Shown here: one piece after another, positions 4,995 to 29,439 of the stretch
Layout of the letters: each line of letters begins with the position of its first letter
Position numbering within the stretch: the stretch's first letter is position 1
Origin: Euhalothece natronophila Z-M001
Lineage (GTDB): Bacteria; Cyanobacteriota; Cyanobacteriia; Cyanobacteriales; Rubidibacteraceae
NCBI RefSeq assembly: GCF_007904085.1
Contig: NZ_CP042326.1
Span: 1 to 64,000, forward strand
Length of the DNA stretch: 64,000 nucleotides
Direction of reading: 5' to 3'
The notes under the pieces: generated by a model
Database searches by the model: none
Told to the model about the DNA's origin: nothing
What the model saw: the letters and a program-made list of their open reading frames with translations, nothing else
Made by a program: the position numbers and the translations under genes

Positions 4995-5145
4995 GTCATA
5001 ATTTGATAAATCTGAAGATATCTAGCCGTAAATTTCCCCCCTAGGGTTACGGCTATTCCCATTGTAAATACTTAATAATAGAGGATAAAGTGAAACCAAT
5101 AGATAAGAAAAGTTAAGAAAGTCGTCTAGCTATAACGTATAAACT

Positions 5146-7536
5146 ATGTTTGAATATTTTACTGATAAAGCCATCAAATCAGTTGTTCTTGCTCAAGAAG
5201 AAGCCCGACGGATGAAGCAAAATCTGGTAGGCAGTGAGCAAGTCTTGCTGGGGATCATTGCCGAAGGAACCAGTGAGGCAGCACAAATCTTAAATCAGTT
5301 GGGGGTAAAACTCCAAGATGCGCGTCAAATCGTAGAAGGATTAGTGGGTTCAGGTTCAGATAATGTGCCAGCGAATATTCCCTTTACCCCCCGAGCCAAG
5401 CGTATTTTTGAACAAGCTCTTGAAATTTCTCGGCAAAAATCTCAGGAGACCATTCTGCCTGAACATATTTTACTGGCAATGACTCAAGAAGAGGGAGTGG
5501 CTACTAAGGTATTGAACCAATTAGGGGTAGAACCTCAACAAGTAGCTAACCAATTACAAGAAGCCCTAGACAATCCTAACTCAGGCAATGACGAACCTTC
5601 TGCGCCTGCCGCTGCTACTATGGGAGGAGAAGGTCGTCAACGGGGATTTGGCTTTAATCAGCAGCAACAGCAACAAAGTGAGGGCTTAAAGTCTTTTGCT
5701 ACCAATTTAACCGATCGCGCTAGAAATGAAGAAATTGACCCCATCATCGGACGCGACCAAGAAATTGAACGCACCATCCAAATTTTAGGTCGTCGCACCA
5801 AAAATAATCCAGTCTTAGTGGGAGAACCGGGGGTGGGGAAAACAGCAATTTCTGAAGGACTTGCCCAGCGCATTGTTCGTAAGGATGTTCCTGAATCTCT
5901 AGAAGATAAGGAAGTCTATAGCCTTGATATGGGCTTATTAGTTGCTGGCACTCGTTTTCGCGGTGAATTTGAAGAACGCCTGAAGAAAATTGTCAAAGAA
6001 GTGCAAGAGGCTGGCAATATTATTCTGGTCATTGATGAAATTCATACTCTCATCGGCGGTGGTGCCATGGAAGGAGGAATGGATGCGGCAAACCTCCTGA
6101 AACCCGCTTTAGCCCGTGGAGAATTACAATGTGTGGGAACAACCACCATGGATGAGTATCGCCAGTACATCGAGAAAGATGCGGCGTTAGAACGGCGTTT
6201 TCAACCTGTCATGGTGGATGAACCTTCAATTGATGAAACCATCGAAATTCTCAAAGGTATTCGCGCGCCTTACGAAGAGTATCATAAGATTAAAATTACC
6301 CCCGAAGCTCTCGAAGCGGCTGCCAAGTTATCAGATCGCTATATTAATGATCGATTCCTGCCAGATAAAGCCATTGATATTATTGATGAAGCTGGCTCAC
6401 GCTTACATTTAAGTCAGTCCATGGCAGAAAAATCTAATGATGACGAACAAGCCGCCGAAATCACCACCGATAGTGAACAAATGCCAATTTTGGGCTTAGA
6501 AGAAGTAGCAACGATTGTTTCCTCTTGGACGGGCGTTCCTGTGACTAAGCTCACCCAAGCCGAGTCTGAATTGCTGTTAAATCTTGAAGATACCCTCCAT
6601 GAACGAATTATTGGACAGGGTGAAGCTGTCAGTGCGGTGTCTCGGGCAATTCGTCGCGCTCGTGTGGGCATGAAAGACGAAGATCGACCCATTGCGAGCT
6701 TTATCTTCTCTGGGCCAACAGGTGTGGGTAAAACCGAATTAACCAAGGCTTTAGCAAAATATATGTTCGGGGATGAAGAGGCGATGATTCGCTTAGATAT
6801 GTCCGAGTATATGGATCCCCAAAGTGTTTCTAAGTTAATCGGCTCTCCCCCAGGATTCGTGGGTTATGAAGAAGGCGGACAATTAACAGAACAAATCCGT
6901 CGTCGTCCTTATACGGTGGTATTATTAGATGAGATTGAAAAAGCCCACCCTGATGTGTTTAATAGCCTCTTACAGGTTCTAGACGAAGGGCATCTCACCG
7001 ATGCCAAAGGGCGACAAGTTGACTTCAAAAACACCTTGATGATCATGACTTCCAATATTGGCTCAAAAGTGATTGAAAAAGGTGGCGGTGGACTTGGTTT
7101 TGAATTAGATACGGAAGAGGATAACCAATACACTCGGATTCGGAATCGAGTTCAAGAGGAAATGAAAAACTACTTCCGTCCTGAGTTTCTTAACCGTGTT
7201 GATGAAGTGATTGTCTTCCGTCAACTGGAAAAAGAGGAAGTTGTGGAAATCGCCGATTTACTCTTAGAAGAAATCAGTGCGCGGTTACGAGAACAACAAG
7301 GGGTTGAGTTAGAAGTCAGCGATCGCTTTAAAGAACGGGTAATTGAAGAAGGCTATGATGCCAGTTATGGCGCACGTCCTTTACGTCGAGTTTTGATGCG
7401 GTTGTTGGAAGATAACTTAGCTCAAGCGATTCTCTCAGGAGACATTTCTGAAGGGGAGACGGCTCGCGTGGATGCTGATGACGAAGGCAATATCCTTGTC
7501 GGTGAAGCTAATAAACAACTGCAGCCGGTGGGCTAA
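5146..7536 (+). CDS. clpC: ClpC-like AAA+ unfoldase (HSP100) with short middle region
   Basis: ATP-driven unfoldase that feeds ClpP-type proteases. Order: double Clp-N repeat (about 1-145), a glutamine-rich linker (about 171-177), AAA1 with GEPGVGKT (about 226-233) and VIDEIH (about 295), AAA2 with GPTGVGKT (about 523) and [10 protein letters not shown] (about 592), then ClpB D2-small. A GLGF loop near residue 650 matches the ClpP-docking position of ClpC proteins. At 796 residues it is shorter than standard cyanobacterial ClpC. The stretch between AAA1 and the SSWTGVPV block is only about 45 residues and lacks a recognisable UVR motif, so adaptor binding may differ. It could be a second ClpC paralogue; the symbol is therefore family-level. 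Confidence 0.85.
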
Positions 7537-7544
7537 TTTCTTTC

Positions 7545-7575
7545 TCCCTTCTTCTTAATCAATAAGGAGGAGGGA
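7545..7575 (+). terminator. Hairpin after the clpC-like gene
   Basis: TCCCTTCTTCTTA pairs (with two G-U pairs in RNA) with TAAGGAGGAGGGA across a short loop, 8 nt after the stop codon. There is no clear U run, so termination is plausible but not certain. Confidence 0.4.
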
Positions 7576-7615
7576 AAACCCACAACCAACCATCACTAAC
7601 GAGTCTTACCGAGGA

Positions 7616-8968
7616 ATGAAAGCATACGTAATTGGTTTAGGACGCTCTGGAATTGCGGCTGCCCGTGTCTTAAAAAAGCAAGGTTGGGAAGTAATAATCA
7701 GCGATCGCAACCTCACTCCCTCTCTCCAAGAAACTCAGCGTCGCCTAGCACAAGAAGGGATTACTGTCAAACTCAATGATACTCCCACGATTGAGGAAGT
7801 AAAAACCGTTGACACGATTATTGCTAGTCCTGGTGTTCCTTGGGATATTCCCCTGTTAGTCCGCGCCCGTGAATACAATATTCCTGTTTATGGGGAAATT
7901 GAATTGGCCTGGCGTAGTTTAAAGGATATTCCTTGGGTGGGCATTAGCGGAACTAATGGTAAAACCACCACAACTGCTCTTTGTGCGGCATTATTTCAAG
8001 GCAGTGGCTTAAATGCCCCTGCTTGTGGCAATATTGGGGACGCTGCCTGTGAGTTGTGCTTAAAAGATAGCAGTTGGGATTGGATTATTGCTGAAATTAG
8101 TAGTTATCAAATTGAATCATCGCAACAACTTGCCCCAGAGATTGGCATTTGGACAACGTTTAGCCCCGATCATCTCGAACGTCACTACACCCTTGAAAAT
8201 TATTTTCAAATCAAAAAATCACTGCTCGATCGCGCTCACTTTAAGATTATTAATGGCGATGATCCCTATCTCCGCAGTTTAGCAGAAGAAAATTGGTCAA
8301 ATGTGCATTGGACAAGTATTAAAGGGTTAGAGGGATTAATTGGTGAACCCAGTCAAGGCATTTATATTGAAGACGGGGAAGTTATTGCCTATGGGGAAAA
8401 AATCATTAATGTTAGTGACTTTCCCATGGTGGGGGATCATAATCTACAAAATTTACTATTAGCCATTGGCGCAGCCCGTTTAGCAGGATTAGACAAAAGC
8501 GCGATCGCGCAAAGTATTATTAATTTTAAGGGCGTTCCCCATCGCCTCGAACCCGTTTGCGAAATTAACGGAGTCTCCTTTATTAACGACAGCAAAGCCA
8601 CTAATTATGAAGCTGCGTGGGTGGGATTATCTTCCGTTTCCAGTCCTGTTATTCTCATTGCAGGAGGGCAAGCCAAAACCGGTAACGATGAGGAATGGTT
8701 TAATCTTATTAAAGAAAAAGCCCAAGCTGTGTTACTCATTGGAGAAGCTTCTTCTAAGTTTGCTCAACGCTTAGAGGAAATTGGATATCAGGCTTATCAG
8801 GAAGTAGAAACCATGAATAATGCTGTTAAGACTGCCGTTAAAATGGCCGAGAAAAAACAGGGTTCTGTGGTGTTATTTTCTCCCGCTTGTGCCAGTTTTG
8901 ATCAATATGACAACTTTGAACAGCGCGGTGATCATTTTCGGAAATTGTGTTTAAGCCATCACTCGTAA
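7616..8968 (+). CDS. murD: UDP-N-acetylmuramoyl-L-alanine--D-glutamate ligase MurD
   Basis: Cytoplasmic peptidoglycan enzyme that adds D-glutamate to UDP-MurNAc-L-Ala using ATP. It is 450 residues, the normal length. The N-terminal Rossmann-like domain starts KAYVIGLGRSGIAAARVL. The Mur ATPase loop GISGTNGKTTTT lies at about 110-121, EISSYQIESS near 160, and the ligase domain has HRLEPV and NDSKATN (about 310-330), then the C-terminal domain with LFSPACASFDQYDNFEQRG, the MurD signature. The start has GAGGA five bases upstream. It is convergent with pth, with a gap of only 7 bp. Confidence 0.97.
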   Translation: MKAYVIGLGRSGIAAARVLKKQGWEVIISDRNLTPSLQETQRRLAQEGITVKLNDTPTIEEVKTVDTIIASPGVPWDIPLLVRAREYNIPVYGEIELAWRSLKDIPWVGISGTNGKTTTTALCAALFQGSGLNAPACGNIGDAACELCLKDSSWDWIIAEISSYQIESSQQLAPEIGIWTTFSPDHLERHYTLENYFQIKKSLLDRAHFKIINGDDPYLRSLAEENWSNVHWTSIKGLEGLIGEPSQGIYIEDGEVIAYGEKIINVSDFPMVGDHNLQNLLLAIGAARLAGLDKSAIAQSIINFKGVPHRLEPVCEINGVSFINDSKATNYEAAWVGLSSVSSPVILIAGGQAKTGNDEEWFNLIKEKAQAVLLIGEASSKFAQRLEEIGYQAYQEVETMNNAVKTAVKMAEKKQGSVVLFSPACASFDQYDNFEQRGDHFRKLCLSHHS

Positions 8969-8975
8969 ACTTCCC

Positions 8976-9548
8976 TTAATTATAAAGATTCATCGCTTTT
9001 TCTATCCCTTTTATTAGCACCGTTTCTATTACATCGGGAGCAACTTTTAGGGCTTCATTAATATGAGGCTGTTCTTCAGGGGAAAACTTACCTAAAACGT
9101 GACCAATTGTATCTTTACTACCGTCAATTTTTTGAATCCCAATTCGCAAGCGGGGAAAATCTTGAGTGCCTAAGTGAGAAATAATTGATTTCATCCCATT
9201 GTGTCCCCCTGCTGATCCCGAACTCCGTAAACGCAACCGCCCTACTGGTAAATCAAGATCATCATAAATAATTAAAACTGACTCTGGCGAAAACTTATAC
9301 CAATCACAAACTGCTCGCACCGCTTGTCCTGAATTATTCATATAAGTTAGAGGTTTCAGTAACCGTATTTTGCCAATTTTTGGGGCAGCACCTTCGCTAT
9401 AATACCCCTTAAAGCGATTATTTTTACTCCAATCTAATTGCCAATTTTTAGCTAAATTATCCACTACTTCAAAACCAATATTATGGCGAGTTTTATCATA
9501 TTTATTTCCGGGGTTTCCTAAACCAACAATTAGCTTAATCTCGGACAT
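8976..9548 (-). CDS. pth: Peptidyl-tRNA hydrolase
   Basis: Recycles peptidyl-tRNA released from stalled ribosomes. About 190 residues. Seen: VGLGNPGNKYDKTRHNIGF with the catalytic His, the LLKPLTYMNNSG block, YDDLDLPVGRLRLR with the catalytic Asp, and SAGGHNGMKSI. An in-frame ATG lies six codons upstream (9566), but the family usually starts close to the beta strand, so MSEIKLIVGLGNPG at 9548 is preferred. Convergent with murD. Confidence 0.95.
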   Translation of the reverse strand: MSEIKLIVGLGNPGNKYDKTRHNIGFEVVDNLAKNWQLDWSKNNRFKGYYSEGAAPKIGKIRLLKPLTYMNNSGQAVRAVCDWYKFSPESVLIIYDDLDLPVGRLRLRSSGSAGGHNGMKSIISHLGTQDFPRLRIGIQKIDGSKDTIGHVLGKFSPEEQPHINEALKVAPDVIETVLIKGIEKAMNLYN

Positions 9549-9593
9549 GATTATTATTGATACCATACATCATAAGATAAATAATACCATATC

Positions 9594-9627
9594 AAGGAAG
9601 TAACTAAAAGTATTATTAGTTATCCTT
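9594..9627. promoter_or_regulatory. Inverted repeat in the pth / membrane protein divergent region
   Basis: AAGGAAGTAACTAA faces TTAGTTATCCTT across an AT-rich loop, between the divergent starts of pth and the 9666 gene. It could be an operator or a leader hairpin; nothing decides between them. Confidence 0.3.
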
Positions 9628-9665
9628 ATAATAGCAATAGCATTTTATTGAATAAAGAATAAAAA

Positions 9666-10493
9666 ATGAAGCGAAATAATGATCTGGCTAATTTCTTTAT
9701 TAATACTAAGGTTTTAATTTTACTAATTGGCTTAACCGCATTAAGTTATATTTTAACAAGTTTGCCGAGTGGTGTTACTCCTGATCCCAATCGAACTTGT
9801 ATCACTGGCGGGTGGAAGTTTTTATTGGTTATGACTCATCTTCTTCCTTTTGTTATTATTCCTATAACGATGCAGGTTTTTTATAAAACTTTAAACTTGC
9901 TCAGTCACTCCTTACAAAGGATTTTTAAATGTCAATTAGGATTAGCCTTAATCATGGTCGCGATCGCGTCTGAAATTGGCTCTCATGTTACCCAATGTTG
10001 GTATTACGAAAATGAATTTACAGGTCTTAATTTTCTGTTTTATCTGTTTTTGATTATTGCCTTTGCGTTATGGGCTGATAGTTTAGTTAGAGAAGTTACT
10101 AGAAACGCTCAATTACTCAATGTCTTATTTGCTCTTAGTTTATTAACTGCTTCTATTTTATATCCTCTGGGGGAACAAGCTAATAATCCTAGTTATAAAA
10201 TTCCACTTTATTTAACCCTAGCTTTAATTTTCGCTGTAATCACCTATCGAGGTTATCAATTAATTTTTTCTTGGAAGATTTTATTAGTTCCTTTCTTTTC
10301 AGTGGGAGTTAATTTAATGTTTATTGCCCTCTTAGCCACCTTAGGAGGCGATCCTTATACTAATCCTCAAGTGGCTTATAATGCGATTTTTCACAGTTTA
10401 CACGATTTAGCAGGAACCCAAATGGGCGTACTTATTTTTACCTTCTTAATGTATGAAAAAGGCAGGGCAATTCTTAGCTCTAAAGAAAATTAA
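9666..10493 (+). CDS. Multi-pass membrane protein, unknown
   Basis: I do not recognise the family. 275 residues with about seven predicted membrane helices. Polar or charged positions inside or next to the helices stand out: THLLPF (about 57-62), EIGSHVTQCWYYEN (about 104-117) and FHSLHDLAGT near 245-254. This His/Asp/Glu pattern across helices could bind a metal or haem, or form a membrane hydrolase site like that of the ceramidase-like CREST superfamily, but that is inference. Upstream is pth (divergent); carB follows 75 bp later on the same strand. Confidence 0.6.
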   Translation: MKRNNDLANFFINTKVLILLIGLTALSYILTSLPSGVTPDPNRTCITGGWKFLLVMTHLLPFVIIPITMQVFYKTLNLLSHSLQRIFKCQLGLALIMVAIASEIGSHVTQCWYYENEFTGLNFLFYLFLIIAFALWADSLVREVTRNAQLLNVLFALSLLTASILYPLGEQANNPSYKIPLYLTLALIFAVITYRGYQLIFSWKILLVPFFSVGVNLMFIALLATLGGDPYTNPQVAYNAIFHSLHDLAGTQMGVLIFTFLMYEKGRAILSSKEN

Positions 10494-10568
10494 TTTTTCA
10501 ACTCAATTACATTTTAGGACGCTTGTACTATACAATAATGTCGATTGCAACTCTGTTCTAAGCGTAAT

Positions 10569-13500
10569 ATGCCCCGTCGTACTGATCTCCAAAAAATTCT
10601 AGTTCTAGGCGCTGGCCCCATTATCATTGGGCAAGCCTGCGAGTTTGACTATTCCGGAACCCAAGCCTGTAAAGCCCTACGAGAAGAAGGCTATGATGTG
10701 GTGTTGGTTAATTCTAACCCAGCTACCATTATGACTGATCCGGAAACGACGGAACGCACCTATATTGAGCCCCTGACTCCCGATGTGGTAGAAAAAATTA
10801 TCGCCAAAGAACGCCCCGATGCCCTTTTACCCACGATGGGGGGACAGACAGCGTTAAATGTGGCGGTGGATTTAGCCAATGCAGGGGTATTAGAAGCCTA
10901 TAATGTGGATTTAATTGGCGCAAAATTGCCAGCTATTAGTATGGCTGAAGATCGCCAATTATTTAAGCAAGCCATGGAACGGATTAATATTCCTGTGTGT
11001 CCTTCAGGCATTGCTGCTAGTTTAGAAGAAGCTCGCGCGATCGCGCAACAAGAAATTGGCACGTATCCCATTATTATTCGTCCAGCTTATACCCTTGGGG
11101 GAAGTGGTGGCGGTATTGCTTATAATCAAGAGGAATTTGAAGAAAAAGCCCAATTAGGACTTGATGCTAGCCCTGTTTCTCAGATTCTCGTTGAACGCTC
11201 TCTTTTAGGCTGGAAAGAATACGAGTTAGAAGTAATGCGCGACTTAGCGGATAATGTCGTCATTATTTGTTCCATTGAGAATTTTGATCCCATGGGGGTT
11301 CATACAGGAGATTCTATTACTGTCGCACCAGCGCAAACTCTGACGGATAAAGAATATCAACGCCTACGAGATTACTCAAAACAAATTATTCGGGAAATTG
11401 GCGTAGAAACTGGGGGATCGAATATTCAGTTTGCGGTTAACCCTGTGGATGGGGAAGTAGTGGTGATTGAAATGAATCCTCGCGTGTCTCGTTCTTCTGC
11501 TTTAGCCTCCAAAGCCACAGGATTTCCCATTGCTAAATTTGCTGCCAAGTTAGCAGTCGGTTATACCCTAGACGAGATTCCCAACGATATTACCAAGCAA
11601 ACTCCCGCCTCCTTTGAACCGACTATTGATTATGTAGTTACAAAAATTCCTCGCTTTACCTTTGAAAAATTCCCGGGATCGAAATCTAATTTAACCACGC
11701 AGATGAAGTCGGTGGGGGAAGCAATGGCAATTGGGCGCACCTTCTGTGAATCTTTCCAAAAGGCACTGCGTTCCCTTGAAACTGGGCGTTATGGTTGGGG
11801 ATGTGACCGAGAAGAAGAACTCCCCTCTCTGAATCAAGTTCAAGCTAGCTTACGCACAGCAACCCCCGATCGCGCGTTTAGTATCCGCCACGGGTTTCAA
11901 TTAGGCCTGACAGTGGAAGATATCCATAAGTTAACCCAAATTGATCCTTGGTTTCTGCACAAACTCCAAGAAATTGCTGAGGGAGAAGCCTTCTTAAAAG
12001 CCACACCACTAGAGGCAATAACAGCCCCACAGATGCGAGAAATTAAACAGCTAGGCTTCAGTGATTATCAAATTGCCTTTGCCACTAATACGCGGGAAGG
12101 AGATGTAGAACAAAAGCGCAGAGAACTAGATATCTTCCCGGTTTATAAAATGGTGGATACTTGCGCCGCCGAATTTGAAGCTTTTACCCCTTATTACTAC
12201 TCTACATACGAAGAAGGAGAATCAGAAGTTATCCCTTCAGAAAAGCCAAAAGTGATGATTTTAGGCGGTGGACCCAATCGCATTGGACAGGGGATTGAGT
12301 TTGACTATTGTTGCTGTCATGCCTCTTTTTCCCTGCGAGAGGGAGGCTATGAAACGATTATGGTTAATTCCAACCCAGAAACCGTTTCTACTGATTATGA
12401 CACCAGCGATCGCCTTTATTTTGAACCCTTAACTCGGGAAGATGTGTTTAATATTATTGCTGTGGAACGCCCACGGGGAATTATTATTCAATTCGGCGGA
12501 CAAACCCCCTTAAAATTAGCAGTTTCCTTAGAAGAGTATTTACATCGGCATCAAGATACCATTCCCACGAAAATTTGGGGAACGTCTCCTGATTCTATTG
12601 ATATTGCTGAAGACAGAGAACGCTTTGAACAGATTTTACGAGAATTAGTGATTGATCAACCTCCCAATGGGCTAGCAAGAAGTTATGATGAAGCCCTCAT
12701 TATTTCTGGGAAAATTGGCTATCCCGTGGTGGTGCGTCCCTCTTATGTGTTGGGGGGTCGTGCCATGGAAATTGTCTATTCTGACCAAGAATTAGAACAT
12801 TATATGAGTTTTGCCGTGCAGGTAGAACCCGAACACCCGATTTTAATTGATAAATTCTTAGAAAACGCGATCGAAGTTGATGTGGACGCGATCGCGGATC
12901 AGGAAGGAAACGTGGTCATCGGCGGCATTATGGAACATATTGAACAAGCAGGGGTTCACTCTGGCGACTCAGCTTGTTCTCTTCCCTATGTCTCTCTCCC
13001 AGAAACAGTTATCAATACCATCCGTAAAGGAACTACCCAACTTGCCAAAGCCTTAAAAGTAGTGGGCTTAATGAATATCCAGTTTGCTGTTCAAGGTGAT
13101 ATGGTTTATATCCTAGAAGCCAATCCTCGCGCCTCTCGTACCGTTCCTTTTGTTTCCAAAGCTACAGGATTTCCTCTGGCGAAACTTGCCTCCCTTGTAA
13201 TGTCAGGGAAAACCCTAAAGCAATTAAACTTCACCACAGAACCGAAACCCAAGCATATTGCCGTGAAAGAAGCGGTATTTCCCTTTGATAAGTTCCCTGA
13301 AACCGATGTCATTCTGGGGCCAGAAATGCGTTCTACGGGAGAAGTAATGGGGATTGATTATGAATTTGGAAAAGCCTTTGCTAAAGCAGAATTAGCAGCC
13401 GGTCAACGTTTACCCTTATCAGGAACGGTGTTTGTTTCCACCAATGATCGGGATAAACAACTGTTGATTCCCATTGTGAAAGACTTTATCCAATTAGGCT

Positions 13501-20673: not shown

Positions 20674-21312
20674 TCATTGATGACTCAGCACTGATTCTTC
20701 ACGCCCTCGTATATTTTCCATGGCAGCTTTAACGGCGTGAGAAGCGGCAATAATTTCTCGTTCTTCTCCCCCTAAATAAAGTCGCCCAAAACTTCCAACT
20801 GCGGAAACTTGCAGGATATTAATACTGGCTGCTTTTTCCGCTTCGTTGGCAGCTAAGGCCGCAAAGGCTGCTGGTTCCACTTCAAAGACATATAAACTTT
20901 CTCCTTTTAATAGCATATGCCCCCGACGAGTACGGTTAATCAGTTGGGCTTGATGAGCGTCAATATTGCGGATAATTTGGCTAGAGACAACATTCGGTTT
21001 GAGTCCGTCTTTTTCTGAAACCCCTAAAGCGTCTAAAATTGACCGTCCGGCAATGGTTACATCTCCCTTTTGCGAAGAATGAATTTCTAATAACCCATAT
21101 AGGCGTTCTACGACTTGTACTCCCGGACGTACATTTGTTGCTTTGAGGGCAACATCGGTAATGCGGTTAATTTCAATTCCCGGAGAAATTTCAATCCACA
21201 GTGAGGTATCCCCCGGAAGCGGTAAAAAGCCTAATGAGACTGTTCCCATATAAGCGGCGTGTTGTGCTTGTAAACTATCTAAATAGACGTAACTACGAAG
21301 GTCGATACCCAA
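20674..21312 (-). CDS. ccmP: Carboxysome shell protein CcmP (tandem BMC)
   Basis: Tandem bacterial microcompartment protein of 212 residues, the length of CcmP and shorter than CcmO. Two BMC domains (about 1-100 and 105-205) form pseudohexameric trimers with a large gated pore in the beta-carboxysome shell. Seen: [20 protein letters not shown] at the start, [15 protein letters not shown], and the repeated [17 protein letters not shown] and [14 protein letters not shown] blocks. It is away from other carboxysome genes, as is common for ccmP. Confidence 0.92.
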
Positions 21313-21468: not shown

Positions 21469-22584
21469 TTGATCGATCGCGCTTTGGATAATTGTTCTTC
21501 TACCGTTACCCCTAGTTCTGATTCTCTCCATCCCCTGCAACAGGTCGCATTAAACTGGATTGCCTTTTGGCAGGGGCGAGATGTGGTGTTTGCTGTTGAT
21601 GTAACTGCCAGTGTGCGCCTTGATGATCAAGGTCGGTTACGCATTGAGCAAATTATTCGTGATGCCATTAATCGCGGGGATACCGTTTATATTGCCCCTT
21701 TTGCTGATACCATTGAGGTTACGAATATAAGGGAAGTGACCAGCGAAGAGGACATTGATGAGGTTTTAACAGAAATTCCTTTAGAACCTGATCCAGATCG
21801 GGCTAATACTGATATTCAGAATGCAGAGTTATTTACTTATCAGTTTTTAGCCCAACAAAATCACTGTCGTCTGGTGGAAAATGATGGCATTCGGGAACAA
21901 GCGGTGGTTTGGCTAACGGATGCCCCCTTAGAAACTGAAACTGGGGATGAGTGGATTGAAACCCCTGCTGATAGTCCGTTTCGGGATGTAGATTCCTCAG
22001 AAAGTCAACTGCGACGGGATTGGCTAGAGGCGTTACCGAGAGAAGCGCGATCGCGCCGTATTCCCACAGGAGACGATGAATTTTACGATCTTACGATTGT
22101 CGATATTCCCCCTACCTTACAAGAATTTTGCACCCCTGCACCCAGTGGGGAAGAAGTCTGTTTCATCAACCGCTATCTCTTCCAACAATTATGGCTACCA
22201 ACGACAAGCGTTCTGGTTTTTTTCGTTACCGCCATCACCCTGTTAGGATTTTGGTATAGTTGGCAAAAACCTTGGCGACTCACCATTGAATTAGAAGCGG
22301 AAGAGAAAGAAGATTATCCTGTAAAGTTCTTGAAATCTAATCAACGTTTAGCTATTGGTGATCAAGATGCCTCCGCCACTGATTATATAGAATGTCCGGG
22401 GAATGAAATTCGTGCCTACCTAGAACGCAAACGCAATCAACTTTATCTGATTCCGACACAAGAAGCCCCAATTTTTTATAAAGATAAAGAAGTGACTACT
22501 CGAACTAAAATTACTGGCAAACGTCTGCGCTTCAATTGTCCAGAAAATAAAAAAGATTTTGAATTTGTCGTTAAAATTGATTAA
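21469..22584 (+). CDS. Membrane-anchored VWA domain protein (partner of tubulin-like GTPase)
   Basis: 371 residues. A von Willebrand A domain (about 35-215) has a MIDAS-like DVTAS at about 44-48 (Thr replaces the first Ser of the usual DxSxS), FADTIEV and the strand VVWLTDAP. One strong membrane helix (about 245-262, VLVFFVTAITLLGFWYSW) is followed by a C-terminal soluble beta-rich domain of about 100 residues with LAIGDQDAS and RLRFNCPENKKDFEF, which has an FHA-like look but which I cannot assign. The first codon is TTG at 21469; no ATG nearby fits. The next gene starts 18 bp after the stop, so the pair is an operon. Confidence 0.75.
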   Translation: MIDRALDNCSSTVTPSSDSLHPLQQVALNWIAFWQGRDVVFAVDVTASVRLDDQGRLRIEQIIRDAINRGDTVYIAPFADTIEVTNIREVTSEEDIDEVLTEIPLEPDPDRANTDIQNAELFTYQFLAQQNHCRLVENDGIREQAVVWLTDAPLETETGDEWIETPADSPFRDVDSSESQLRRDWLEALPREARSRRIPTGDDEFYDLTIVDIPPTLQEFCTPAPSGEEVCFINRYLFQQLWLPTTSVLVFFVTAITLLGFWYSWQKPWRLTIELEAEEKEDYPVKFLKSNQRLAIGDQDASATDYIECPGNEIRAYLERKRNQLYLIPTQEAPIFYKDKEVTTRTKITGKRLRFNCPENKKDFEFVVKID

Positions 22585-22602
22585 TAATTCTGAGGAGTGA
22601 TT

Positions 22603-25600
22603 ATGCAAGCGAAAGAAAGAAATTTACGCGGTGTCAAGCGAACCATCTGTATTGGGTTAGGGGGAACAGGAAAAAATGTTTTAATGCAGTTACGGCGATT
22701 AATTGTTGATCGTTATGGCGACTTAAACGAACTCCCAATTATTGGTTTTACGCATATTGATACTGATAAGGGGGCAGCCCAAAGTTCAGGGTTACGCACT
22801 GGGAATACTTATCATGGGGTTTCCTTAAGTTTTCGGGATTCTGAAAAAGTTTCCGCCACCATGAGTAGTAAAGAAGTTACCAATTTTGTTCAAGGATTAG
22901 AGCGTAGAAATCAATCTGATCGATCCAGTCCTTATGATCATATTGGTCGTTGGTTTCCACCGCAATTACTCCGCAATATTAAAGCAGTAGAAGAAGGGGC
23001 AAAAGGAATCCGCCCTGTCGGACGATTAGCATTTTTCCATAACTATTCTAACATTAGAAGTGCGATTGAAACTGCTGAAAAACGAACCCGAGGACATGAA
23101 GCCAAGTTATTACAAAAAGGGCTTTATTTAGAACCCGGTTTAAATATTTTTATTATTGGTTCTTTGTGTGGGGGAACAGGGAGTGGAATGGTGCTTGATA
23201 CTGCTTATAGTTTGCGTCAAGACTATGGTGATCAAGGGGCGCAAGTTTTTGGTTATTTAGTGATTAGTCCACAGCTTTATGGTAATAATCCGAGTCAAAG
23301 TGCGAACACTTATGCAGCGTTAAAAGAGTTAAATTACTATAGCACCCCAGGTAGTCAATTTCAAGCAGTTTATGATCCCCAAAATCTGGTTTGGGTAGAA
23401 GAAAAACGCGCTCCCTTTGATTATACTTATCTGATTTCTAGTGAAACAGGTGGCGAATATACGATTCTAGATCAGCGAAAATTATGTAATGTTATTGCTC
23501 ATAAAATTGGCTTAGAATTTTCTAGTGAATTAGCCCCTGTTATGAGTGGAATGCGGGATAACTTTTTAAGCCATTTAATCGGTTGGGATCAACATCCGCG
23601 GCGTAATAGTCAGGGCTATTTAACGTTTGGATTAGCGGCAATTTATTTTCCGCGCGATCGCATTGTCCAAATTGCCTTAAATCGAATTAGTTTAAATCTT
23701 TTAGAATTTTGGCTGAATGGTAAGGGACAAAAACCCGATGTTAATTTGTTACTAGAACAGTTTATGACGGGGGCAAGTTGGCATCAAAGTTTAGATGCGA
23801 AAGATAACTTTACCTATCGCCTACGGGAAGCAAGTCGGGATGGTAAATATAGCTTTACGGATCGCCTGAAAAGTTGGCGTAATAATCAAGAAAAGTTAAT
23901 TAATGAAAATAGTAAGAAGCCTGACGATCGCGCTCGCCTTTATCAACAACTTCCCAAACAGTTTAAGCAAGAATTTCGGAAAGTACAACCCGGAGAAACG
24001 GAAAGTGTACGGGGGGAATGGATTACTCGCCTCAAACAAGCGCAACCGAAGCTAACCGCCACCTTAAAAGAAGAAATTTATCAATTTTTAGTGGGGTTAC
24101 TTACCCCCAGTAATCAAAACTTTTCCTTGCGTGTGAGTCGAGAATGGTTAGAAGCCTTATTCAGCGAATTAAATAATTATCAGCGCGAATTGGAAGAAAA
24201 AATCCGACAAGATAACCAATTCCATACTCTAGAAGAAGTGGAAAAAACTTGGCGCAATACCCAAGAAGAAATTGACGAAATTGATCAGAAATTTAAGCTG
24301 TTTGGTAATAAAGGAAGTAAAATTCAAGAAGAAGCTCGCGGTGCGTTACAACGAGTGAATAAATTAATCCAAGAGAACTTTGAACTAGCTTTAAATCAAG
24401 AAGCCTTAAAAATTGTTCAACAATTACAGGAATATGTTCAAGCGCGATCGCGCGAATTGGCAAATTTAAGTCGCACCGTTGATAGTTTAAGAAATGACTA
24501 TTTAGAAGAAGAAAGTGAACTCAAGCAACTGAACTTTGATGAAATGAGTGGAGAAGCCATTTTTAATGATGAAGATATCCAGCAATGTTGTGAGACATTA
24601 TTACCCTCAGAAGAAGCGCGATCGCGCCTAGTTTTAGTTAGCGATCAAATTACTGAACACATTGGGGAAGAAAAATCTCTCATTAACCTCGTAGAAGAAA
24701 ACTATATCAACGAAGACAGCTTACAAAATTCCATTTATCAAGCCGTTGATACCCTTTTTGGTCGTCACAGTTCTACAGTTATTAATTCCGTGATTAAACG
24801 GTTTCTGCAAAACTATCGAGGTTCAGAACGTTCTATTCGCTTAAACCAAATATTACAACAAGCGGCTCCCTTACTGAAACTCAATAAAGCCGATCCCCAT
24901 TACGTGGATGATAGTGCAAAAAGTTCCAGAATTATTGGCTTTCGCGATACCGATGAAACCGAAGTACAACAATTTAAAGAAATTTTATACAACGATTTAG
25001 CCATCCCCAACTCAGAAATGAAACCCACTCAAGCCGAAGACGAAATTATTATTGTGAGTGAATACGCTGGCTTTCCGCTACGTCTCATTGAAGGCTTAGA
25101 TCAAATGCGAAAACATTACGTTAAAGCCACAACCTCTGCCAAAGAATTTCTCCATAATGATGCCCAAACCACTTTTACCGATATTATTCCCCCTGATGCC
25201 AATACCTTAGAAGACTTACAAGATATTTTCTATCCTTCCCTTGCTTTAGAGTTATTATCTTCCAATGCAGAAACGGGACAACTCGAATTTACTTATGATG
25301 ATAAAATGCGAGGCTATGAAAAAACCGCCTCTCTCAGTCCAATTTGGGAACAGGCATTAGAAACCCTATATCGACAAACTGATCTCGCCACCACCCTCCA
25401 AGACAACTTGGAAGCCATCATCACAGAAATTAAAAATCAGCCTCAACAATGGGAAGAATATTATCGTCCAAAATTCCAACAATTTGTCCAATATGTGGAT
25501 AACATTCCTGATACTGATCCGAATTACCCCTATCGAGATACTCTCCTTGGAATTGAAGGAACACTTGATACTCCCTACCAAGAAGGAGTGTTAGAAAGAT

Positions 25601-25824
25601 TCCGCAAACGTATTGAACGGGAAATTCAGCCGTTACTCCAATCTCAAGAACAAGCCTCCCGTGTGATTGAAGGGAAGCCAGAAGAAGAAATAGAAGATGC
25701 AGAAATTGTAGAAGACTCCCAACAAGGCTTAAGTGAACTAGAGAAATTAATTCAGCATAAAGAGAAGGGATATCTCTCTGAAGAAGAGTTTCAAGCGGCG
25801 AAACGAAGATTATTAGGGCTTTAG
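22603..25824 (+). CDS. Giant tubulin/FtsZ-like protein (Tubulin_2 type) with SHOCT-like tail
   Basis: 1073 residues. The N-terminus has a nucleotide-binding Rossmann strand and turn (RTICIGLGGTGKNVLMQLRR) and, near residue 190, the tubulin-superfamily signature in IGSLCGGTGSGMVLDTA, so GTP binding is likely. The next 300 residues look like the rest of the tubulin-like fold. The middle (about 440-850) is largely helical and rich in E, Q and K, with coiled-coil character. The last 30 residues (SELEKLIQHKEKGYLSEEEF) match the SHOCT helical hairpin, an oligomerisation tail. GAGGAG before the ATG at 22603 favours this start over GTG 22597. Coupled to a membrane VWA protein; probably a filament or membrane-remodelling system, function unproven. 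Confidence 0.8.
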   Translation: MQAKERNLRGVKRTICIGLGGTGKNVLMQLRRLIVDRYGDLNELPIIGFTHIDTDKGAAQSSGLRTGNTYHGVSLSFRDSEKVSATMSSKEVTNFVQGLERRNQSDRSSPYDHIGRWFPPQLLRNIKAVEEGAKGIRPVGRLAFFHNYSNIRSAIETAEKRTRGHEAKLLQKGLYLEPGLNIFIIGSLCGGTGSGMVLDTAYSLRQDYGDQGAQVFGYLVISPQLYGNNPSQSANTYAALKELNYYSTPGSQFQAVYDPQNLVWVEEKRAPFDYTYLISSETGGEYTILDQRKLCNVIAHKIGLEFSSELAPVMSGMRDNFLSHLIGWDQHPRRNSQGYLTFGLAAIYFPRDRIVQIALNRISLNLLEFWLNGKGQKPDVNLLLEQFMTGASWHQSLDAKDNFTYRLREASRDGKYSFTDRLKSWRNNQEKLINENSKKPDDRARLYQQLPKQFKQEFRKVQPGETESVRGEWITRLKQAQPKLTATLKEEIYQFLVGLLTPSNQNFSLRVSREWLEALFSELNNYQRELEEKIRQDNQFHTLEEVEKTWRNTQEEIDEIDQKFKLFGNKGSKIQEEARGALQRVNKLIQENFELALNQEALKIVQQLQEYVQARSRELANLSRTVDSLRNDYLEEESELKQLNFDEMSGEAIFNDEDIQQCCETLLPSEEARSRLVLVSDQITEHIGEEKSLINLVEENYINEDSLQNSIYQAVDTLFGRHSSTVINSVIKRFLQNYRGSERSIRLNQILQQAAPLLKLNKADPHYVDDSAKSSRIIGFRDTDETEVQQFKEILYNDLAIPNSEMKPTQAEDEIIIVSEYAGFPLRLIEGLDQMRKHYVKATTSAKEFLHNDAQTTFTDIIPPDANTLEDLQDIFYPSLALELLSSNAETGQLEFTYDDKMRGYEKTASLSPIWEQALETLYRQTDLATTLQDNLEAIITEIKNQPQQWEEYYRPKFQQFVQYVDNIPDTDPNYPYRDTLLGIEGTLDTPYQEGVLERFRKRIEREIQPLLQSQEQASRVIEGKPEEEIEDAEIVEDSQQGLSELEKLIQHKEKGYLSEEEFQAAKRRLLGL

Positions 25825-26082: not shown

Positions 26083-26595
26083 ATGAAAAAGCTATCAATT
26101 ATAGCATCTGGAGCTGTAGCGTCTATTTTTATGTTAGGCTCTACTATGGTTGCTGAAGCTCAAGAGCAGCAACAACAACCATCTCCAGATCAGCAAATGC
26201 CTGCCACTCCTGAAGGAAGCACAGTTGATGTTGACCAAGAAGAGTTAGAACGCTTTGCCAATGCGTTTTTAGCTGTTCAGGAAATTCAAGATCAGTCTCG
26301 TCAGGAAATGGCAGAGGCAATTGAGCAAGAGGGGCTCACTATTGAGGAGTACAATCAAATGTTCCGACAGCAACAGCAACCTGAAGCTGCGGAATCAGAA
26401 ATGAGCCCAGAGCAACAAGAACAGTTTCAACAAGCTGATGCTCGTATTGATGAAATTGAGCAGGAAGCGCAAACTGAAATTGAGAACGCCATTACTGGTG
26501 AAGGAATCGAGCTAGAACGCTTTGAACAACTTTGGGTTGCAATCCAACAAGATCCAGAACTTCAACAGGAAGTACAACAAATCTTGCAGAACTAA
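26083..26595 (+). CDS. Secreted DUF4168 protein, copy 1
   Basis: 170 residues. A signal peptide (about 1-26, ending VAEAQ), a Gln/Pro-rich linker (about 27-50), then the DUF4168 domain (about 55-168) with LERFANAFLAVQEIQ, ADARIDEIEQEAQTEIENAI and ELQQEVQQIL. Likely extracytoplasmic; function unknown. It is the first of three DUF4168 genes in 3.4 kb, each with the same RFANAF and FEEIF/FEQLW blocks. A small lipoprotein gene follows 32 bp later. Confidence 0.85.
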   Translation: MKKLSIIASGAVASIFMLGSTMVAEAQEQQQQPSPDQQMPATPEGSTVDVDQEELERFANAFLAVQEIQDQSRQEMAEAIEQEGLTIEEYNQMFRQQQQPEAAESEMSPEQQEQFQQADARIDEIEQEAQTEIENAITGEGIELERFEQLWVAIQQDPELQQEVQQILQN

Positions 26596-26627
26596 TTTAG
26601 ACGTTAAAGGAAATTAAAGAAATTACC

Positions 26628-26795
26628 ATGAAAATTAAGCAAATTCTATTATTATCAATCGGTCTTCTTTCTCCCCTTGCCCTCGCGGCTTGCGAGCCTC
26701 CTGCAGATGATATGCCACCGGGTCCTGACGAAGAGGAAGGAATGCCAGATCAACCAGATGAGCCTGGTGATCCTGGTGATGACAATGGTCTCTAA
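26628..26795 (+). CDS. Small acidic lipoprotein (55 aa)
   Basis: Starts MKIKQILLLSIGLLSPLALA followed by the lipobox cysteine (LALAAC), so it is probably lipid-anchored. The mature part is about 34 residues, nearly all Pro, Asp, Glu and Gly (PDEEEGMPDQPDEPGDPG). It resembles the N-terminal halves of the 27900 and 28714 products. A terminator follows within 40 bp, which supports it as the last gene of a unit with copy 1 of DUF4168. Confidence 0.75.
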   Translation: MKIKQILLLSIGLLSPLALAACEPPADDMPPGPDEEEGMPDQPDEPGDPGDDNGL

Positions 26796-26831
26796 GGGGC
26801 TTGTGCGCTAGTTTACCTAATAAAAAAAACT

Positions 26832-26861
26832 AAAGGGTAGTATTTTCACTGCCCTTTTTTT
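26832..26861 (+). terminator. Rho-independent terminator
   Basis: AAAGGGTAGT pairs (with G-U) with CACTGCCCTTT and runs into seven T, about 37 bp after the small lipoprotein stop. Confidence 0.75.
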
Positions 26862-26929
26862 GCTTATATAGGGATTTCAGGTAAAAGCTATTGAACTCAG
26901 ACATTTAGATTATTTCAATCAACTACCGC

Positions 26930-27067
26930 TATAGCAATCCTAAATCAGTTGTAAACTTCCACTTTAGTTCCCCCCTTTAATAAGGGCGGTTAGGGGGGAA
27001 GCCTTCGGCACGGCTTTCAGCCTACGCAACTTAAGCTACTTTTTACAAATGAGATCATATTGCTATA
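26930..27067 (+). mobile_element. Family 2 miniature element, copy A
   Basis: Left end TATAGCAATCCTAAATCAG and inverted right end TATAGCAATATGATCTCAT, TA-flanked. The interior has a C-run/G-run hairpin (CCCCCC...GGGGGG) and no gene. The same element lies inverted at 29619. The remaining intergenic DNA from 27068 to 27285 is AT-rich with no gene I can support; a 44-codon upstream extension of the next reading frame (from 27154) lacks a signal-peptide start and is not used. Confidence 0.85.
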
Positions 27068-27285
27068 TATCTAATATTGATAGAAATATAGAAACATTCC
27101 TCTATTTTTTCCTTAACAAAGGGGATTAAAGGGATAAACTATAATTTGAGTCTTTGGAGATGGCAATAATCTTAAGCTTCTCACAAAGATTTCTCATTCT
27201 CTTCCTAGAATTTTCAAATTTTTATCTTAACTTTATATTTGAAGTCAAAAACAAATTACTCAAACTCAAAATAGGAGATAAACCG

Positions 27286-27786
27286 ATGAAAGCCCCATCA
27301 ATTGTAATAGGAACTCTTGCTTCTCTTTTCTTAGTTGGTAGCTATACTTCTGCAGAAGCACAACAACAACAAGAAGCACCTCAACAGCAAATGCCCCAAC
27401 AACAAGCGCCAGAAATATCAGTTGATTCTGATGAAATTGAACGCTTTGCGAATGCTTTTGAAAATGTACAAGGGGTTCAAGATGAAGCCCGAGATAACAT
27501 GATGCAAGCCATTGAGGAAGAAGGTTTAGATATTGAAACTTATAATCAAGCATTTCGGATGCAACAGCAAGGAGCAGACCCCTCAGAAGAATTAAGCCAA
27601 GAAGAGCAACAACAGTTTGAACAAGCTGACTCAAGGATTGATGAAATTGAGCAAGAAGCTCAAAGTGATATTGAACAAGCAATTACTGATGCTGATTTAG
27701 AGGTAGAACGATTTGAAGAAATTTTTATGGGAATTCAACAAGATCCAGAACTGCAACAACAGGTTCAAGAGGCAATCCAGCAATAG
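27286..27786 (+). CDS. Secreted DUF4168 protein, copy 2
   Basis: 166 residues. Signal peptide (MKAPSIVIGTLASLFLVG, cleavage near AEA-QQ), a Gln/Pro-rich linker, and a DUF4168 domain with IERFANAFENVQGVQDEA, DSRIDEIEQEAQSDIEQAI and the ending QQDPELQQQVQEAIQQ. The frame is open upstream to 27154, but the ATG at 27286 gives the signal peptide and has AGGAG seven bases before it. The domain is very close to the C-terminal half of the 28714 gene, pointing to recent duplication. Confidence 0.87.
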   Translation: MKAPSIVIGTLASLFLVGSYTSAEAQQQQEAPQQQMPQQQAPEISVDSDEIERFANAFENVQGVQDEARDNMMQAIEEEGLDIETYNQAFRMQQQGADPSEELSQEEQQQFEQADSRIDEIEQEAQSDIEQAITDADLEVERFEEIFMGIQQDPELQQQVQEAIQQ

Positions 27787-27805
27787 AAATTATCGGTAAA
27801 TCTTT

Positions 27806-27840
27806 GGGGTACACAAAAATTAAAATCAGTTAGTGTACCT
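27806..27840 (+). terminator. Hairpin after DUF4168 copy 2
   Basis: GGTACAC (27808) pairs with GTGTACC (27833). Related GTACC/GGTAC-type stretches recur before 28714 and at about 29460-29515, so this is part of the duplicated unit. Confidence 0.45.
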
Positions 27841-27899
27841 CAATTAAAATAAATCACTCAAAGAAAATATCTAATAACTAAAATTAAGGAGGAAAGGTA

Positions 27900-28505
27900 A
27901 TGAAATCTAGATTAATCGCTCTGTTACTAATTGGTTCAATTGTTCCCTTAGGCGCTGCAGCTTGCGGTGATATGGCACAAGAAGAAGCTCCAGCACCAGA
28001 GGAAGCTCCTACTAATGATGGTATGGGTGAACCTGACGATGGCTTCGGTGAACCCGATGATGGTATGGGCGAACCTGACGATGGCTTCGGTGAACCCGAT
28101 GATGGTATGGGCGAACCTGATGATGGCTTCGGTGAACCCGATGATGGTATGGGCGAACCTGATGATGGCTTCGGTGAACCCGATGATGGCATGGGCGAAC
28201 CTGACGATGACTTCGGTGAACCCGATGATGGCATGGGCGAACCTGACGATGACTTCGGTGAACCTGACGATGGCTTTGGCGAACCCGATGATGGCATGGG
28301 CGAACCTGACGATGGCTTCGGTGAACCCGATGATGGCATGGGCGAACCTGACGATGGCTTTGGTGAACCCGATGATGGTATGGGCGAACCTGACGATGGC
28401 TTTGGTGAACCTGAAGACGACTGGGAAGACGATGATTGGGAAGATGATGATTGGGAAGACGATGATTGGGAAGACGATGATTGGGAAGACGATGATTGGG
28501 AATAA
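27900..28505 (+). CDS. Acidic repeat lipoprotein (GEPDDG repeats)
   Basis: 201 residues. A lipoprotein signal (MKSRLIALLLIGSIVPLG, cysteine in the AAAC-GD region), a short linker, about 18 tandem seven-residue units GEPDDG(F/M), then six DDWE units to the end. The mature protein is extremely acidic and should be disordered, outside the cytoplasmic membrane, perhaps binding cations. The signal is nearly identical to that of the 28714 gene. AAGGAGG lies just before the ATG. A long minus-strand open frame over the repeat (27884-28339) is only a mirror of the repeat. Confidence 0.8.
   Translation: MKSRLIALLLIGSIVPLGAAACGDMAQEEAPAPEEAPTNDGMGEPDDGFGEPDDGMGEPDDGFGEPDDGMGEPDDGFGEPDDGMGEPDDGFGEPDDGMGEPDDDFGEPDDGMGEPDDDFGEPDDGFGEPDDGMGEPDDGFGEPDDGMGEPDDGFGEPDDGMGEPDDGFGEPEDDWEDDDWEDDDWEDDDWEDDDWEDDDWE
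28024..28501 (+). repeat. Coding minisatellites: 42-bp then 15-bp tandem repeats
   Basis: A 42-bp unit (two seven-codon GEPDDG modules, one with Phe and one with Met) repeats about nine times with few changes. It is followed by about five 15-bp units (GATGATTGGGAAGAC). The repeats are nearly uniform at DNA level, so copy number is likely to vary between strains. Confidence 0.85.
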
Positions 28506-28559
28506 GGGTTAATTTTGGATAGGATTAAATAATCACCCTGGTTGTCGTTAACTCATAAA

Positions 28560-28588
28560 GCAAGGTAAGCTATCATAGTTTACCTTGC
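28560..28588 (+). terminator. Hairpin after the acidic lipoprotein gene
   Basis: GCAAGGTAA pairs perfectly with TTACCTTGC across an 11-nt loop. The equivalent hairpin after the relic unit at 29.6 kb has been split by a family 2 element. Confidence 0.55.
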
Positions 28589-28713
28589 AATTTGTACTCA
28601 ATTACAGGCTTCTTGTTAACGGGGCACTGAAAATTAGCATTCGCTCACTGTACCTCATTACATAAAAAACTCTAAAGAAAAAAATTAAGGATTAAATTGA
28701 AGGAAGAAGAATA

Positions 28714-29439
28714 ATGAAATCCAGATTAATTGCTCTATTACTGATTGGTTTAATTGTTCCCCTGGGTGTTGCTTGTGGTGATGATATAGCACAAGAAAAT
28801 CCTGCGCCAGAAGAAGAAACTCCTACCGAACCTGAAGATGATCTCGGTGAACCCGAAGACGACTTTGATGAACCTGAAGATGATCTCGGTGAAACTGAAG
28901 ACGACTTTGATGAACCTGAAGATGATCTCGGTGAAACTGAAGACGACTTTGATGAACCTGAAGATGATCTCGGTGAAACTGAAGACGACTTTGATGAACC
29001 TGAAGATGATATGGGTCAACCTGAGGCAGAAACACCTCAACAGGAAGCGTTGCCAGAACAAGCACCAGAAACATCGATCGATTCTGAAGAAATTGAACGT
29101 TTTGCTAATGCTTTTGAAAGTGTACAAGCGCTTCAAAATGAAGCCCGAGATAGCATGATGCAAGCCATTGAGGAAGAGGGTTTAGATATTGAAACCTATA
29201 GTCAAGTGTTTCAGATGCAACAGCAAGGGCTGGAACCATCAGAAGAGTTAAGCCAAGAAGAACAAGAACAATTTGAGCAAGTTGATGCAAGAATTAATGA
29301 AATCGAACAAGAAGCTCAAGCCGATATTGAACAAGCAATTACTGATGCAGATTTAGAAGTAGAGCGATTTGAGGAAATTTTTATGGCAATTCAACAAGAC
29401 CCAGAACTGCAACAGCAAGTTCAAGAAGCGATTCAGTAA
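28714..29439 (+). CDS. Chimeric acidic lipoprotein-DUF4168 protein
   Basis: 241 residues. Residues 1-22 copy the lipoprotein signal of the 27900 gene (MKSRLIALLLIG, cysteine in VACGDD). Residues about 40-105 are a four-fold 14-residue acidic repeat built on DEPEDDLGETEDDF. Residues about 115-241 are a DUF4168 domain nearly matching copy 2 (IERFANAFESVQALQ; PELQQQVQEAIQ). The gene therefore looks like a fusion of its two upstream neighbours. Likely lipid-anchored and extracytoplasmic; function unknown. Confidence 0.83.
   Translation: MKSRLIALLLIGLIVPLGVACGDDIAQENPAPEEETPTEPEDDLGEPEDDFDEPEDDLGETEDDFDEPEDDLGETEDDFDEPEDDLGETEDDFDEPEDDMGQPEAETPQQEALPEQAPETSIDSEEIERFANAFESVQALQNEARDSMMQAIEEEGLDIETYSQVFQMQQQGLEPSEELSQEEQEQFEQVDARINEIEQEAQADIEQAITDADLEVERFEEIFMAIQQDPELQQQVQEAIQ

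Follow-up and report, generated by a model that had tools for sequence, protein, structure and literature searches.

The gene pair and its two products

The 64,000-nucleotide stretch analysed here, referred to as a whole as the window, comprises positions 1-64,000 of contig NZ_CP042326.1 (plus strand) of Euhalothece natronophila Z-M001. It carries two adjacent genes on the plus strand, here termed A and B, which are both intact open reading frames and encode a membrane protein with a predicted VWA domain and a giant protein of the FtsZl1 (FtsZ-like 1, Tubulin_2) family, respectively. We consider it likely that these two proteins represent one half of a four-protein envelope machine, the motor half of which, formed by proteins C and D, is encoded at two other loci of the same genome. 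The features of the pair are the following:

21469..22584, plus strand: gene A, VWA - transmembrane helix - FHA-fold protein, 371 residues; TTG start, stop codon 22582-22584
21598..21612, plus strand: core of the metal-ion-dependent adhesion site (MIDAS), DVTAS, residues 44-48 of A; alignment of 51 rows
22129..22161, plus strand: CTPAPSGEEVC, residues 221-231 of A; both Cys residues invariant in 51 rows
22189..22245, plus strand: single transmembrane helix of A, residues 241-259; hydropathy peak, helix 232-266 in the model
22267..22581, plus strand: predicted FHA-fold C-terminal domain of A, residues 267-371; Foldseek and structure alignment of the model
22592..22597, plus strand: GAGGAG, ribosome-binding-like sequence before ATG 22603; read from the sequence
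22603..25824, plus strand: gene B, giant FtsZl1/Tubulin_2 protein, 1073 residues; Pfam and model
22633..23721, plus strand: GTPase half, predicted first part of the tubulin fold, about residues 13-375 of B; Tubulin_2 match and model, end boundary deduced
23722..24921, plus strand: predicted long helical insertion, about residues 376-775 of B; DSSP of the model, boundaries deduced
24922..25143, plus strand: candidate second part of the tubulin fold, about residues 776-849 of B; deduced from DSSP order
25735..25815, plus strand: SHOCT-like tail, residues 1047-1073 of B; Pfam 17.6 bits, below the cut-off of 27

Since a TAA lies just upstream of TTG 21469 and no start codon intervenes, this TTG is the earliest in-frame start of gene A. 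The start of gene B was placed at ATG 22603 rather than at GTG 22597 because GAGGAG precedes this ATG; 18 bp then separate it from the stop codon of gene A. Residue numbers of B count from GTG 22597, i.e. from the mechanical open reading frame of 1075 residues. Scanning of both proteins against PADLOC gave no match and against NCBIfam no meaningful match, sequence searches of solved structures led nowhere with A, with B or with the B profile, and a search of the own genome with gene B (E up to 10) returned gene B itself as the only match.

Protein A matches Pfam VWA_2 with 18 bits, which is below the cut-off of 27. In its AlphaFold2 model (predicted local distance difference test score, pLDDT, of 89.6; alignment of 51 rows), residues 35-198 are predicted to form a VWA domain with a Z score of 10.1 to the VWA domain of CLCA1. 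The DVTAS metal site (DxSxS, here DxTxS), pointed out already in the original prediction made from the letters of the window, is well conserved: D44, T46 and S48 are invariant, and T114 and D151 are found in at least 90% of the 51 rows. The C-terminal part of A, which had been called unassigned, did not stay so, as residues 267-371 are predicted to adopt an FHA fold (Foldseek probability of 1.0 to FHA domains; Z 10.1, root-mean-square deviation 2.8 and 99 aligned residues to VIA). Canonical FHA domains bind phosphothreonine through Arg/Ser/His residues. At the places judged by eye to be equivalent, A has IGD/IGE and E-(I/V)-R, and the usual phosphothreonine-binding residues are not evident in this inspection of the alignment. 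The Cys pair just before the transmembrane helix possibly forms a disulfide. Positive charge is concentrated behind the helix, with 4.25 Lys and Arg residues in the 15 following positions versus 1.18 ahead of it (n = 68), and this asymmetry together with the invariant Cys pair favours an orientation with VWA outside and FHA inside. However, the A family lacks a signal-peptide-like start, as judged from hydropathy near the start (n = 68; no dedicated predictor was run), which argues against VWA being outside. The start hydropathy exceeds 1.6 in four of the 68 members, apparently owing to the VWA strand itself.

Protein B matches Pfam Tubulin_2 over residues 17-368 with an E value of 9.3e-111 (370.9 bits, cut-off 27). 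It carries GLGGTG at residues 20-25 and, as predicted, the tubulin signature GGTGSG at residues 192-197, and this loop, of the GGTG(S/T)G type, is invariant in 59 rows. The acidic residue at position 311, which by sequence we take to resemble the T7 acid of FtsZ, is Glu in at least 90% of the 59 rows and Asp in the second cyanobacterial type of the family described below. Modelling of B (pLDDT 85.9; alignment of 59 rows) yielded a tubulin-like structure, as originally proposed, with a Z score of 24.4 to CetZ (3zid_A; root-mean-square deviation 3.9, 307 aligned residues of 360). The long helical middle of this 1073-residue protein likewise appears in the DSSP analysis of the model, where it is extended, and the C-terminal part is predicted to be mostly helical. 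The aligned range extends from residue 13 to 849 of the B model and from 1 to 346 of CetZ, and among the matches listed the CetZ/tubulin alignments stop at residues 846-868. Because the CetZ alignment reaches past the insert, and because of the order of helices and strands, the model suggests that the tubulin fold of B is complete but interrupted by a helical insert of ~400 residues; the comparison uses the first and last aligned residues, from which we infer the junctions around the insert. A split fold would answer why the T6-H7 elements and the C-terminal tubulin domain were not found in FtsZl1 in 2010 (PMC2875224). Thus, the claim of a membrane VWA protein next to a giant FtsZ/tubulin relative was borne out, the relative belonging to the FtsZl1 family as published (PMC2875224). 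As to the three profiles named with this claim, the Tubulin_2 match is firm, whereas the VWA_2 and SHOCT matches both remain below the Pfam cut-offs.

Motor-like partners of the pair

Gene linkage was assessed in 80 named cyanobacterial loci, in which A and C were counted up to a distance of 4 kb from B and D up to 8 kb; copies that are broken or separated from B by another gene were taken as present. Gene A lies upstream of B in 70 of the 72 loci with enough upstream sequence, and the linkage of the two genes expected from the window is therefore conserved. Downstream of B, two further genes recur: of the 70 loci reaching far enough, 68 have C and 66 have D, and the order A-B-C-D is present in 62 of the 66 loci with both flanks adequate. 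Among the exceptions, L101 has C, no nearby D and another C-D pair upstream, and L114 has D upstream on the other strand. No fifth gene is conserved across the 80 loci, the commonest other neighbour family occurring in 19 of them at scattered offsets (families were not annotated singly). To these data come counts in 291 cyanobacterial genomes, which share several organisms with the named loci and are uncorrected for phylogeny (thresholds: at least 600 bits for close-type B, at least 300 bits for the VWA protein and any match at E 1e-20 for C and D; broken 101-bit VWA pieces in G233 were left out). A and close-type B occur in the same 34 genomes, and their pairing is thus not due to chance. C is present in 33 and D also in 33 of these 34 genomes; in G121, D adjoins another C copy on another contig, so that strictly operonic D amounts to at most 32 of 34.

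As regards the window, the statement that only the two core parts are present is correct. It does not hold for the genome, where C and D reside at separate loci. Own C (C1:2180811-2182472, E 4e-221, 607 aa) and own D (C1:2931962-2932621, E 2e-100, 224 aa) are both full length without stops and are located ~2.2 and 2.9 Mb along the contig, unlinked to A-B and 0.75 Mb apart from each other. In phylogenetic trees, both cluster with the Halothecaceae operon copies of the genus (support 100/100), own C being 66-69% and own D 76-77% identical to the genus orthologues, and own D keeps the TDLMSN motif. Four of the six genomes of the genus, including the own one, hold A, B, C and D; in the two without A and B, nothing beyond weak C-like matches and paralogous D-like ones was found. 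Among 40 relatives, again including the own genome, A is found in 14 and close-type B in 15; the same 14 possess all four genes, and G308 has B without A, C and D. A second D-like OmpA-type protein (G000:C1:3290479-3291198, minus strand, 133 bits) is also encoded in the own genome, and each of the five further genomes of the genus that were searched has a match to it.

C and D were found from the neighbourhoods of A and B in relatives, and 12 copies of each were aligned. In the larger named set, 62 of 71 C proteins have three hydropathy peaks, and C possesses a long tail resembling a coiled coil. All 12 aligned rows share T122 and S166, which may by analogy correspond to the polar Thr/Ser positions of a MotA-like core. 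For D, a single hydropathy peak was counted in 72 of 73 members, its position in the own protein being close to the N-terminus, and 68 of 73 carry [FY]TDLM[SA]N, followed by an OmpA-type region. Residues matched to what we take to be the OmpA-type core motif are invariant in the 12 rows of D. With PADLOC, the copies score as ZorA-like (46-54 bits) and ZorB-like (26-30 bits; E 7e-8 to 7e-6 for D versus ZorB). The membrane core of own C (215 aa, coiled coil removed) matches the ZorA model of PADLOC with E 2.8e-14 and that of NCBIfam with E 4.3e-8, the latter below the cut-off. By sequence, C thus looks like a distant ZorA/MotA-like protein and D like a MotB/ZorB-like protein with an OmpA-type domain. 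The OmpA-like partner mentioned in the original prediction would correspond to D, which in this clade looks like a motor subunit of the MotB/ZorB type that comes with a MotA/ZorA-type partner. An outer-membrane barrel was rejected for D in view of its single hydropathy peak. Likewise rejected was the idea that C-D is Zorya proper, as the own C core is far below the curated ZorA cut-offs (32.6 bits versus 100, 28.3 versus 500 and 16.7 versus 700). As a positive control served a genuine type I Zorya operon (ZorA, ZorB, ZorC) that we came across in a cyanobacterium (L086 9571-13930, G195), the true ZorA scoring 927 bits.

Relatives of B were also examined outside the close type. A second cyanobacterial FtsZl1 type is 22-24% identical to the window protein. 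In five of its six loci, the gene upstream encodes a protein that has a helix at the N-terminus and the motif DxSxST (a Pfam scan of one such protein gave no match), and five of six have a CxxCG-bearing protein (with a periplasmic-binding domain in the one scanned). A search at E 1e-3 among 50,697 phage and 72,556 plasmid records found relatives of the tubulin domain in one and 10 of them, respectively, and an origin of the window pair from phages or plasmids was set aside on these numbers. Nine of the ten plasmid records were examined (H8 was left out). Three Deinococcus plasmids carry a tubulin gene followed by a MotA-like and then an OmpA family gene; the MotA-like gene follows directly in two and after a transposase plus one gene in the third. 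It matches the C model with E values from 1.4e-13 to 4.3e-16 and is annotated as MotA/TolQ/ExbB in QL22, and the two OmpA family genes scanned match Pfam OmpA with E 1.4e-17 and 2.8e-18. Three Thermales plasmids (L167, Allomeiothermus; L170, Thermus; L174, Meiothermus) show the order vWA - tubulin - ~680-aa protein - brxL with helicase or exonuclease genes nearby, which looks like an undescribed defence-type locus. The linkage of FtsZl1 to a motor was surveyed in Cyanobacteriota and Deinococcota: it is strong in one large clade, recurs in another phylum and is not universal.

Several further observations were made on the way. Plasmid p2 of Azospirillum sp. TSA2s (L168) has a tubulin-like gene amid caspase-family and OmpA-family genes, and a 9.8-kb 'Bacteriophage sp.' record from human faeces, of putative phage origin, encodes a 23% identical tubulin-like domain (MT836542.1 6943-7965, H11). 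In L045/L067 (G005), stop codons split gene B into two main open reading frames, while A, C and D are open. At L079 (8274-11519), L080, L083 and L084, a pair of the C-D type directly follows a PhoH-like gene (PhoH E 1.4e-94 in L079), and no tubulin or VWA model match was found in these loci; judged from sequence, the PhoH-linked copies of C fall within the clade that is linked to tubulin, which looks like re-use of the motor. L078 (G014, 2769-11180) encodes, divergently from a C-D pair, a lipoprotein-like DxSxS protein and a protein of 502 aa that matches Tubulin_2 faintly (E 0.016), and is possibly a second tubulin-motor combination. Within the window, the beta-carboxysome protein CcmP is encoded immediately upstream of the pair (20674-21312, minus strand; NCBIfam 396.6 bits, cut-off 340), and gene B is followed at 26083-29439 by genes for three DUF4168 proteins and a GEPDD-type repeat protein, which looks like a paralogous array.

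Possible function and rival explanations

The linkage in the order A-B-C-D, the co-occurrence of the four genes and the retention of unlinked C and D in the own genome led us to assign all four proteins to one machine. In this machine, C and D would, by analogy, form an ion-driven rotary motor of the MotAB/ZorAB type with the composition C5D2 in the inner membrane. D would contribute its single helix with the ion-binding Asp, and its OmpA-type domain would grip peptidoglycan, whereas C would reach with its long coiled-coil tail into the cytoplasm, where B is expected. There, the tail may act on, or be engaged by, the GTP-dependent assembly of B. A would be a membrane adaptor, exposing VWA with the MIDAS on one side of the membrane and the FHA-fold domain on the other, and could report the state of the envelope to B or dock B to the motor. 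The likely job would be to couple an event at the cell envelope to assembly or movement of B at the membrane. It is conceivable, and we put this forward tentatively with somewhat more doubt than confidence, that a peptidoglycan-anchored rotary motor works directly on a tubulin-family filament, the C tail driving or gating polymerisation of B and the insert of ~400 residues acting like a lever. The output may lie in defence, in maintenance of the envelope or in movement.

A number of observations weigh against such a machine. L144 and L155 carry B alone, without A, C and D. Conversely, C is present in 10 and D in 13 of the 257 genomes without close-type B, and the PhoH-linked C-D subclade means that the motor is not exclusive to tubulin. 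The six loci of the second FtsZl1 type, two of them on contigs of less than 10 kb, have no credible C (best 16 bits) and no match to D. A credible C or D is likewise absent from the three plasmid loci of Thermales, where the best score is 10 bits, from both loci of Azospirillum and from the Cylindrospermopsis plasmid. In Deinococcus, the D model finds only one of the three OmpA genes, with E 0.008. The homology of the motor proteins is itself distant: the 46-54 bits of C in PADLOC compare with 927 for genuine ZorA; among solved structures it matches mostly coiled coils, and ZorA only weakly (E 0.0023 and 0.059); of three full C proteins, one has a Pfam MotA_ExbB match below threshold, whereas neither the other two nor the own C core has any; and Pfam OmpA is below threshold or absent for D. 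Finally, the evidence is computational throughout, and the contact between C and B is putative, as are the 5:2 assembly, ion flow, binding to peptidoglycan and polymerisation.

Two alternatives concern the composition of the system. A and B might be functional alone in this organism, own C and D being relics or re-employed, for which the dispersal over the contig could be cited, C and D lying ~2.2 and 2.9 Mb along it and 0.75 Mb apart. But both genes are full length without stops, D has preserved TDLMSN, their identities to the genus orthologues are as given above, and the two genus genomes devoid of A and B are likewise without full matches to C and D. A two-gene system complete in itself is therefore disfavoured and appears quite improbable to us. 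Alternatively, an FtsZl1 filament anchored via the VWA protein could remodel membranes or form vesicles, with the motor genes being accessory. This has been put forward in published context analysis (PMC2875224, PMC5898192) and would agree with the tubulin-like fold of the B model. However, the cyanobacterial linkage of C and D to B is nearly as tight as that of A, and an objection raised by a reviewer of the 2010 paper, namely that a tubulin in the cytoplasm has no way of meeting an OmpA-like protein of the outer membrane (PMC2875224), points to a misread OmpA partner. If D is a motor subunit, the OmpA-type partner would find its place in the inner membrane and the objection would be removed. 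We hence regard remodelling with merely accessory motor genes as unlikely.

The third alternative concerns the purpose and is compatible with the four-protein machine: in analogy to Zorya, the motor would sense envelope damage and the tubulin would serve as effector or as scaffold that traps or isolates the infecting genome. ZorA and ZorB are indeed the nearest relatives of C and D among the models tested, although PADLOC is a library of defence systems and the nearest name is biased accordingly. The patchy presence in 34 of 291 genomes, and in four of six in the own genus, would fit anti-phage defence, as would the vWA-tubulin pairs on Thermales plasmids that adjoin brxL, helicase or exonuclease genes, the Azospirillum tubulin gene next to caspase-family genes, and the tubulin and vWA genes in proposed conflict systems (PMC7159879). 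On the other hand, A and B are without a match in PADLOC, no further gene is conserved with the operon, and the spread over three loci is unlike a mobile defence cassette. Defence thus is a possibility to be taken seriously, albeit one we would not expect to prevail. Taken together, we favour the four-protein envelope machine, for which this genome would keep A-B, C and D at three places.

Comparison with known systems

FtsZl1 was described in 2010 by Makarova and Koonin, cyanobacteria included. They gave a VWA protein as its partner, joined in several genomes by OmpA-like proteins, and proposed a role in membrane remodelling or vesicles (PMC2875224), which was later repeated (PMC5898192). The pair studied here shares with this family the N-terminal FtsZ-like domain with GGTGSG, the long helical middle and the VWA partner; its relatives in other genomes also have an OmpA-type partner in the operon. 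The pair differs by the FHA-fold domain on the VWA protein, by the MotA-type partner and by dispersal of the operon in the E. natronophila genome, where the OmpA-type partner, D, present in 66 of 70 named loci, is encoded separately and has a Pfam OmpA match below threshold. The main text of the 2010 paper contains no occurrence of MotA, MotB or ExbB and reads the OmpA-like proteins as beta-barrels; its additional file 6 has further unnamed associated families, among which C may be found (PMC2875224).

With ZorAB and MotAB, the C-D pair has in common a MotA-like core with a long cytoplasmic tail in C and, in D, a single helix, a conserved Asp and an OmpA-type domain. In Zorya, the cytoplasmic extension of ZorA, the Asp of ZorB and its peptidoglycan-binding domain are reported to be all needed for function (PMC11890865). 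However, the similarity is distant only, and the linked genes encode a VWA-FHA protein and a giant tubulin. As to the Zorya effectors (ZorC/ZorD, ZorE, type III), A and B gave no match in PADLOC and no other neighbour family exceeds 19 of 80 loci, in scans that left aside the neighbours of own C and D. The vWA force-transducer/TolQ-like motor loci described in Mol Biol Evol 2025 also place a vWA membrane protein beside an ion-driven motor gene (PMC12204202). In those loci, the motor-binding or trans-pore helix belongs to the vWA protein itself, whereas our system has a separate MotB-like protein, D; tubulin has no occurrence in that paper. The GAP1-N2 conflict systems (Kaur et al. 2020) combine a tubulin having a C-terminal helical region with a membrane vWA protein (PMC7159879). 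They are built around GTPases and FNIII-repeat proteins, while here conservation across loci stops at A-D.

The word 'tubulin' is missing from the main texts of PMC12505986, PMC12204202 and PMC12839542, and 'MotA' from those of PMC7159879 and PMC5898192. Among the matches listed, there is no paper whose title or abstract connects FtsZl1 to a motor of the MotA type. We know of no tubulin-type cytoskeleton that is powered by a 5:2 motor. The 2010 description of FtsZl1 gave no mechanism, and a motor composed of C and D would put a wall-anchored engine of the inner membrane beside a tubulin, a proposal that is open to tests in cyanobacterial cultures. Should motor and tubulin be coupled, the system would join the two main force classes of bacteria, ion-driven rotary motors and nucleotide-driven filaments. 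Thus, while the FtsZl1 family was already known, its motor partners, the FHA domain, the dispersed operon and a probable split tubulin fold are new.

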